From Parasedimentitalea psychrophila (GTDB taxonomy: Bacteria > Pseudomonadota > Alphaproteobacteria > Rhodobacterales > Rhodobacteraceae), in NCBI RefSeq assembly GCF_030285785.1, contig NZ_CP127247.1, positions 2,627,501 to 2,691,500 on the forward strand: DNA of 64,000 bases. Direction: 5' to 3'. Each line of letters starts with the position of its first letter. Position 1 is the first letter of the stretch. A model generated the notes under the pieces. It worked only from the letters and a program-made list of their open reading frames with translations, was not told the origin of the DNA and searched no databases. This document shows positions 32,379 to 61,054 of the stretch, piece after piece. Made by a program: the position numbers and the translations under genes.

Positions 32379-32553
32379 CTGACATTCCCAAGTGGACTGC
32401 AGGAGCCTATCATAATCCTAAATGAAATACACTGAAGGCGGGAAGCCTCAGCTTGCGTTTATTCCAATCGGCCGATACCTAGGCTCAGGAGCCATTAATC
32501 TGCTTGAGGCTATCTGTTCTGCATGATTCAAGGCCCCAAATTACGGGGGTTTT

Positions 32554-32901
32554 ATGAGTAATCTTTTCTGGCTGAGCGAAGATCAGATGGCTCGGCTTCG
32601 GCCCTATTTTCCGAAGAGTCATGGCGTGCCACGGGTCGATGATTGTCGAGTGTTAAGTGGTATTATTTTCATCAATCGCAATGGGTTGCGTTGGTGTGAT
32701 GCGCCCAAGGAGTATGGTCCACACAAGACGCTCTACAACCGCTGGAAACGGTGGAGCGACATGGGGGTGTTCGCGCGGATTATGATGGGGCTGGCAGCCG
32801 AGGTTCCTGACAACAAGACGATCTCAATTGACGCAACTTACCTCAAGGCACATCGCACGGCCTCCAGCCTGCGGGTAAAAAAAGGGGGCGTGGACGTCTG
32901 A
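32554..32901 (+). CDS. IS5-family transposase, N-terminal reading frame (OrfA)
   Basis: 115 aa. Begins MSNLFWLSEDQMARLRPYFP, the usual start of IS427-group transposases, and carries the DNA-binding region (DDCRVLSGIIFINRNGLRW) and the first catalytic Asp in ISIDATYLKAHRTASSLRV. It reads into A7G5 at 32877-32888 and stops at 32899-32901. A -1 shift on the A-run joins it to the next frame, where GRGRLI matches the expected family sequence; this may be programmed frameshifting. Confidence 0.88.
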   Translation: MSNLFWLSEDQMARLRPYFPKSHGVPRVDDCRVLSGIIFINRNGLRWCDAPKEYGPHKTLYNRWKRWSDMGVFARIMMGLAAEVPDNKTISIDATYLKAHRTASSLRVKKGGVDV

Positions 32902-33389
32902 TCCCCTGCCCGGCAGGGCATTGCGCATCAATGTCCCGAGAGGGGACGTACCAAGGGCGGTATGAACACGAAGTTGCATGCCGTGCCCCCTCTCATGGTT
33001 TGCAGGCAAACCACTGCCGGGCAGTGGACGCGATTGGGCGGCCGATCCAGTTCTTCCTGACCGCCGGTCAGGTTAGCGATTACACTGGGGCAAGAGCTCT
33101 GGTGAATAGTCTGCCAGCGGCCGACTGGCTATTGGGAGATCGCGGATATGACGCGGATTGGTTCCGAGAGGCCCTTGTAGATATGGGAATAACGCCCTGC
33201 ATCCCTGGACGAAAGTCGCGAGACAAAACCATCAAGTACGACAAGCGTCGTTACAAAAGACGTAACCGGATTGAGATCATGTTTGGTCGCCTGAAAGACT
33301 GGCGGCGCGTGGCTACCCGTTATGACCGATGCCCGAAGGTCTTCCTGTCCGCCATCGCTCTCGCAGCAACCGTGATCTTCTGGTTATGA
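32880..33389 (+). CDS. IS5-family transposase, C-terminal reading frame (OrfB), with two inserts
   Basis: 170 codons open from the A-run to TGA 33387-33389. The C-terminal half is intact: LTAGQVSDYTGARAL, the second catalytic Asp in WLLGDRGYDADWFREAL, and the Glu in RNRIEIMFGRLKDWRRVATR. The family sequence between LIG and DAxGRP is displaced. RTKGGMNTKLHAV is encoded in another frame (32944-32985) between two inserts of 40 and about 41 nt. Because these sum to 81 nt the frame recovers, so a product with 27 extra codons and 14 altered residues could still be made. An ATG start at 32931 would miss the first catalytic Asp. Confidence 0.72.
   Translation, partial: KRGRGRLIPCPAGHCASMSREGTYQGRYEHEVACRAPSHGLQANHCRAVDAIGRPIQFFLTAGQVSDYTGARALVNSLPAADWLLGDRGYDADWFREALVDMGITPCIPGRKSRDKTIKYDKRRYKRRNRIEIMFGRLKDWRRVATRYDRCPKVFLSAIALAATVIFWL
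32904..32943 (+). repeat. Palindromic mini-insert A inside the transposase gene
   Basis: 40 nt interrupting the family sequence after GRLI. It comprises palindrome CCCTGCC/GGCAGGG (32904-32918), stem-loop CATTG/CAATG (32919-32933) and the tail GAGAGGGG (32938-32945, running into the coding sequence). Inverted relative to insert B. Confidence 0.65.
32986..33026 (-). repeat. Palindromic mini-insert B inside the transposase gene
   Basis: About 41 nt interrupting the family sequence after KLHAV. Read on the minus strand it has palindrome CCACTGC/GCAGTGG (33011-33027), stem TGGTTTGC/GCAAACCA (32996-33013) and tail GAGAGGGG (32987-32994), the same order as insert A. GTG flanks both sides and may be a target duplication. 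Confidence 0.65.
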
Positions 33390-33432
33390 GTCCTGAGCCT
33401 AGGGCGAATTCTAATATGATTGGTTCCAAGAA

Positions 33433-61029: not shown

Positions 61030-61054
61030 CACTGCCCGGTGCTGCCGGGCAGTG
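61030..61054. terminator. Hairpin between convergent desaturase and serS
   Basis: Perfect 10-bp stem CACTGCCCGG/CCGGGCAGTG with a TGCTG loop, 10 nt after the desaturase stop. T-tract poor on both strands. Confidence 0.6.

Follow-up and report, generated by a model that had tools for sequence, protein, structure and literature searches.

Transposons of the IS200/IS605 (HUH Y1) group insert 3′ of a fixed short target word, leave no target duplication, and carry terminal hairpins. REP and REPIN sequences are described, in the available parts of two reports (PMC3116915, PMC3733652), as palindromic units of 20–40 nucleotides (nt) that occur in high copy, form hairpins in single strands, and are thought to move in trans. 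A CGTC-tagged class of REPs is mostly alphaproteobacterial and, as far as the available text of PMC3733652 extends, has no known dedicated transposase; its members possess a single 8–9-bp stem ending in CCA, and the CGTC is part of the repeat. The pneumococcal element RUP comprises 107 bp, bounded by 9-bp inverted repeats with TA at the termini; it duplicates its target and contains stops in every one of the six frames. It was found in insertion sequences (ISs) of more than six families, where it inactivates transposase genes (PMC2229807). The same report describes the Rickettsia palindromic elements of 105–146 bp, which form in-frame fusions within protein genes, and many of these genes are conserved (PMC2229807).

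The window analyzed here is a 64,000-nt stretch of the Parasedimentitalea psychrophila genome (contig NZ_CP127247.1, positions 2,627,501–2,691,500), in which the transposase gene of an IS is interrupted by two small palindromic inserts. Among the loci listed, the purD of this genome comes nearest to that of Zongyanglinia huanghaiensis (93%), and the accompanying hits point to a roseobacter. We read these inserts as members of a single roseobacter family of mobile mini-elements, high in copy number and non-autonomous, that are moved in trans and insert precisely, without duplication, at YCRTC/GG (the slash marks the point of insertion), mostly in or beside IS DNA. We put the probability of this reading at about 0.7. 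The literature searched, with most subscription journals outside its coverage, held no description of the family, in agreement with the original prediction, which had called the element previously undescribed. With about 40 nt, all of it structure, the element would rank with the smallest known to be mobile and to have a defined target.

The host IS occupies positions 32479–33402 (plus strand) and was assigned, presumably correctly, to the IS5/IS427-like group. It has the ends CTAGGCTCAGG... and ...CCTGAGCCTAG, with an outer CTAG that is possibly target. A search of the genome (5.0 Mb, four contigs) with the last 373 bases of the IS, in which 28 of 28 candidates were scored, gave eight copies including that of the window, two of them forming a head-to-tail pair, and no uninterrupted copy. 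Comparison of the eight copies defines the ends, as the common sequence stops at the same points and the flanks are different. The next relatives in the genome are 68–79% identical to the window IS, over part of its length only. The first transposase frame, orfA (32554–32901, plus strand), ends after an A7G run that would be the frameshift window of this IS group, and both inserts lie downstream of it, within orfB. Between the inserts is a transposase segment (32944–32988, plus strand; the GRTKGGMNTKLHAV region) whose frame is shifted in the presence of insert 1, and the remainder of orfB (DAIGRP ... FWL) follows at 33027–33389 on the same strand.

Element 1 (E1; 32904–32943, plus strand) is 40 nt long and consists of the CCCTGCCCGGCAGGG hairpin, the CATTGCGCATCAATG hairpin, and the tail TCCCGAGAGG, inserted at CTGATC/GGACG. 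Its borders are exact to the base, because four of the eight IS copies lack precisely 32904–32943 and are otherwise >99% identical. When the genome was searched with bases 32880–33060, four copies were identical over the entire query, whereas in the four others bases 1–24 and 65–181 of the query adjoin each other. In this empty site, query base 24 is joined to base 65 and the junction reads GATC/GGAC, with no base lost and none duplicated.

Element 2 (E2; 32989–33026, minus strand) belongs to a different subfamily, of which more dispersed copies are present. It is composed of CACTGCCCGGCAG, a hairpin TGGTTTGC-CT-GCAAACCA, and the tail TGAGAGG, and is inserted at GCGTC/GGTCAC in the minus-strand reading. 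Its length of 38 nt follows from diverged relatives that are empty at the E2 site (Loktanella, strain SC52, Sagittula, and others; about 72–79% identical). These relatives have one codon more at this position than had been assumed, and GTGACC beside E2 is kept in two of the genome's own IS copies, indicating that three of the bases previously counted in an insert of about 41 nt are the IS's own codon. Neither E1 nor E2 is accompanied by a target duplication. Folded alone, both are mildly more stable than shuffled sequences, with unexceptional DNA z-scores of −1.2 to −2.1.

The original prediction thus described the sequence, coordinates, and symmetry of the inserts correctly and gave the right length for the first. 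It had regarded the two as inverted copies of one plan, whereas E1 and E2 are two divergent members of one family and not inverted copies of each other. Comparison with IS copies and relatives empty at the respective site, a check of the kind that it proposed, gave the insert borders and showed that no target was duplicated. It had also allowed that all intact relatives might carry the segments as normal coding sequence; four of the eight same-genome copies are without segment 1, and diverged relatives are without both.

E2 is found in all eight IS copies of the genome and E1 together with E2 in four of them. The two add 78 nt, a multiple of three, and so restore the frame. Restoration had been foreseen with a sum of 81 nt, which included the IS codon. 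Because the eight copies have different flanks, the IS transposed after E2 had arrived, and because four copies carry both inserts, it transposed further after E1. This continued transposition can be due to trans-complementation by a copy since lost, to a tolerated enlarged protein, or to skipping of the insert, and the second, frame-restoring insert may help the host IS to stay active. In one copy (G000:C1:4796231-4797092, L009), a single extra base fuses orfA and orfB into one 278-amino acid frame that runs through both inserts. Translational bypassing, with its byp elements, is a known process. It is conceivable, if quite improbable, that the element is a hyperparasite adapted to life in transposase genes, tolerated as transposase would still be made via frame-restoring insert pairs or via ribosomes skipping the hairpin block by such bypassing, so that the IS would transpose on and carry the element with it. 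The interruption of all eight IS copies, the paired inserts in half of them, and the fused frame are compatible with this idea.

The family to which E1 and E2 belong follows a common plan of CAYTGCCCGGCAG, a second hairpin that is variable in sequence, and GAGAGG. A covariance model built from 14 copies, a search likewise suggested with the original prediction, found 142 matches in this genome (E up to 0.1), so the inserts have many further copies where the prediction had considered that there might be no second one. The genome contains CAYTGCCCGGCAG, the first hairpin of 13 nt, 76 times and the backward reading of this sequence, used as a control, 0 times. Sixteen first-hairpin matches outside the model list were inspected, nine with the GAGAGG tail and seven without it. 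A 17th match of this kind lies in the window itself, where a separate inverted repeat at 61030–61054 (CACTGCCCGG..CCGGGCAGTG) has the same start as hairpin 1 and neither second hairpin nor tail. The elements carry no gene of their own; 135 of the 142 matches are 36–41 nt long, and the family as a whole spans about 36–42 nt. The 40-nt consensus is open in all six frames, and E1 and E2 each have a stop in one frame. Only 33 of the 142 lengths are divisible by three and there is, therefore, no sign of general selection for in-frame insertion. A longer parent element was also considered on the basis of two left-end-like sequences (at 197132 and 2741691) that lie about 440–650 nt from a full copy, and was rejected, as the DNA around them is a shared repeat and no right end matches them.

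Changes in the stems had been predicted to be compensatory, and this is borne out by the covariation among 47 distinct 40-nt sequences, which represent 68 of the 142 copies. Taken as a whole, the structure scores 0.402 for covariation, compared with 0.139 for shuffled alignments (0 of 500 shuffles as high) and at most 0.128 for slid controls. Across these 47 sequences, 95.0% of cells conform to the pairing of the named structure, and 8 of the 12 pairs change on both sides. Such two-sided changes affect seven of the eight pairs of hairpin 2 versus one of the four pairs of hairpin 1. We infer that hairpin 1 and the tail are recognized by sequence and hairpin 2 by shape. RNAalifold offers an alternative fold in which the loop of hairpin 1 pairs with the tail, replacing hairpin 1. 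At the gathering score, the window contains no Rfam match.

For the target site, the 142 model hits were collapsed by flank to 70 distinct sites, a set that excludes E2-like copies found only by BLAST and the nine extra pattern copies. The resulting consensus is YCRTC/GG. On the 5′ side of the junction, 52 of the 70 sites have C at −1, 50 have T at −2, and 44 have C at −4; on the 3′ side, 60 have G at +1 and 42 have G at +2. Flanks beyond about 7 bases hold little information. Twenty-nine of the 70 site clusters are multi-copy, and 41 are single in the set, with unrelated flanks. Diverged relatives locate the empty sites of E2 and of two insertions in an IS110 element with an uncertainty of about one base. 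The same holds for an IS3 element, which adds a graded series, with four elements in a Roseobacter litoralis plasmid copy, one in a Sulfitobacter pontiacus copy, and an uninterrupted homologue in Sulfitobacter dubius. The R. litoralis plasmid is pROLI127, on which a single IS3-like transposase gene holds its four elements at four sites (L334 101-1349). On the S. pontiacus plasmid (L331 1501-1540), some 27 nt separate the element from the A6G run that precedes it in the IS3 transposase, and the record gives one coding sequence with a protein accession across it, in a table that has no pseudogene flags. We rejected this gene as proof of tolerance, as the 41-nt difference from S. dubius moves orfB to another frame.

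The same nucleotide is filled in distant relatives of the IS. Four of the eight window-type copies have the E1 site occupied, and so does G006; it is also occupied in G009 and Leisingera, whose copies share about 72% identity with these. For E2, the site is occupied both in the clade of the window and G006 and in G007. On the IS tree, the filled lineages are separated by unfilled ones, which argues for independent insertions at the same nucleotide. Same-site filling is best read in this way, and repeated precise loss would be the alternative. Three versions of the element occupy one and the same site in a set of five IS110 copies of about 99% identity; 7 of 40 columns vary within the element, and 13 of about 1,040 beyond it. 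This means either repeated insertion at one spot or exchange between copies. A homologue of the window IS in G006 (L157) has a further, different insert of about 43 nt as well as, by eye, a third family element at a truncation.

The original prediction held that the element targets mobile elements, and as a statement on residence this stands. Translated homology to IS open reading frames (ORFs) from other places was found near 52 of the 70 element sites (30 of the 41 single-copy sites) versus 6 of 200 random points, although the query ORFs were taken from element loci, which favors element sites and inflates the contrast. In a Pfam scan of 70 chosen ORFs, most of them from 326 listed, 21 of the 70 sites fell within ORFs whose match to a transposase-associated family reached the cut-off, and the window IS contains 2 more. 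Another 10 sites have an ORF of this kind or an IS copy at a distance of up to 300 bp and 10 have a below-cut-off match at that distance, so that of the 43 sites with hits, 10 rest on below-cut-off matches; the remaining 27 of 70 have no IS family hit within 300 bp among the 70 ORFs scanned. Some of the strong hits are helix-turn-helix domains typical of transposases rather than catalytic domains. By their Pfam families, we take the hosts to be probably of the types IS110, IS3/IS481, IS5, IS6, IS21, IS30, and IS256. A CDtoxinA hit on one ORF (18 bits, cut-off 22) was taken as chance. The density of the target word does not account for the preference, as YCRTCGG is less frequent in the IS ORFs (0.40 per kb) than in a 400-kb sample of the genome (0.84 per kb). 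The claim of targeting as such is left with two explanations that both fit, aiming at ISs on the one hand and survival plus hitchhiking on the other; the simplest explanation of the residence in ISs is that the elements survive where DNA is dispensable and are amplified by the IS that hosts them. The family also shows that ISs can carry a parasite smaller than themselves, as was seen before, in an unrelated case, with pneumococcal RUP.

The family is patchy in its distribution, with matches in 25 of the 61 genomes searched and a single match in one of 24 genomes of other families. Counts in eight genomes of the same genus are 106, 1, 19, 14, 1, 0, 62, and 92, where 106 is this genome (142 matches in the covariance search, the cross-genome count using stricter filters) and 0 a congener. 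Plasmid records with a match number 97 of 72,556, and the organism names among those shown are roseobacters and their kin, such as Sulfitobacter, Leisingera, and Phaeobacter. Phage records gave one weak partial match only.

Compared with the systems described above, the element is closest in habit to RUP, another short non-autonomous element lodged in several IS families (PMC2229807, in excerpt). At 36–42 nt it is shorter than RUP, and it differs from RUP and MITEs in the lack of a target duplication (base-exact for E1 and consistent for the others), and in its ends CA.../...GG, which are not inverted repeats. With the Rickettsia elements, as the excerpt portrays them, it shares the presence of palindromic repeats inside genes that are readable as protein, but divisibility by three is confined to 33 of 142 lengths and the hosts are mostly IS genes (PMC2229807). 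In form it is closest to REPs and REPINs, yet in contrast to these, as characterized in the available parts of PMC3116915 and PMC3733652, it has no GTAG tag, running instead CAYTGCC...GAGAGG with the flank YCRTC, and no RAYT match in the genome. Its two hairpins are dissimilar and do not constitute an inverted REP pair, and it resides mostly in or beside IS genes. CGTC-tagged REPs resemble it in having no known enzyme and in that the word CRTC adjoins the element, whereas here CRTC stays in the empty target and there are two stems and a GAGAGG tail, a comparison made with that paper's wording only (PMC3733652, in part). As in IS200/IS605 transposons, target duplication is absent, a fixed short target word is located 5′, and hairpins are present; unlike in these, there is no Y1 match in this genome, no replication-strand bias was seen, and the hairpins abut the ends. 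The element may therefore work like a REP mobilized by a HUH enzyme, but by the features tested it is not a member of the REPs. Empty sites, target word, and repeated filling of the same site are all visible in sequence, which makes it testable how REP-like repeats without a known transposase move.

HUH-type transposases depend on a fixed word 5′ of the insertion point and do not duplicate the target; both features are present here. In the mechanism we propose, an enzyme supplied in trans would recognize hairpin 1 and the tail and would excise or copy the element as folded DNA, most simply as a single strand in the manner of HUH-type transposases. The element would then be joined 3′ of YCRTC, with hairpin 2 needed mainly as a stem that holds the ends together. 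Searches for Y1, Y2, and reverse transcriptase families did not single out such an enzyme. Toward neither replication strand was a bias seen in the orientation of the single-copy insertions (22 of 41, p 0.76, with origin and terminus guessed from the GC skew of 20 samples and many sites in mobile ISs), which lends no support to single-strand transposition. One way to supply the enzyme, which we consider possible though unlikely, is that the family is a member of the REPs/REPINs mobilized by a RAYT (Y1 transposase) since lost here or provided by relatives. Small palindromic elements in high copy without duplication would suit such an origin, and Y1_Tnp matches are present in four of the eight high-copy family genomes (G002, G006, G007, and G014). 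Most of these matches are fragments or contain a stop, however, and two of the 15 low-copy genomes have matches as well (Fisher p 0.13). Y1_Tnp (PF01797) has no match in the present genome, the one with most copies, whereas the same search finds matches in 5 of 14 control genomes, and the missing GTAG tag and the two hairpins that are not inverted copies of one REP also speak against a RAYT.

Retro-insertion, in which a conserved RNA-like fold would be copied by a reverse transcriptase, would suit the strong structural conservation and a hairpin 2 nearly free in sequence. We regard it as extremely unlikely, since the present genome, with the highest count of all, is without an RVT_1 match and RVT_1 shows no association with copy number in the 23 family genomes (3 of 8 high-copy versus 7 of 15 low-copy). 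It is very improbable, too, that the elements have no dedicated mobility and spread only inside ISs, with changes by gene conversion between copies. Such a process would be in keeping with the 29 multi-copy site clusters, and conversion could explain the three versions at one IS110 site, but it leaves the 41 single sites with unrelated flanks and the empty sites in IS5, IS110, and IS3 hosts unaccounted for. That the element is moved by another recombinase of the host ISs, such as an IS91/Y2 enzyme or one of the RNA-guided IS110 type, appears distinctly unlikely to us. IS110 copies are indeed among the hosts, and Y2_Tnp is present in five of the eight high-copy family genomes and in 0 of the 15 low-copy ones (uncorrected p 0.0017), which leaves three high-copy genomes without a Y2_Tnp match. 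Two-strand recombinases that use a core would leave a core dinucleotide common to the two junctions, and we see none here. Y2 (IS91) is present in this genome, but against it as the mover, IS91 ends do not resemble the element and IS load confounds the association, with a Spearman coefficient of 0.81 between element copies and matches to the window IS across 23 genomes.

Three nearly identical IS91-like elements of about 2.6 kb are located in this genome (G000) near 2.25, 2.83, and 2.84 Mb (L260–L262), each comprising a Y2 transposase and an ORF that, by eye, resembles a tyrosine recombinase.
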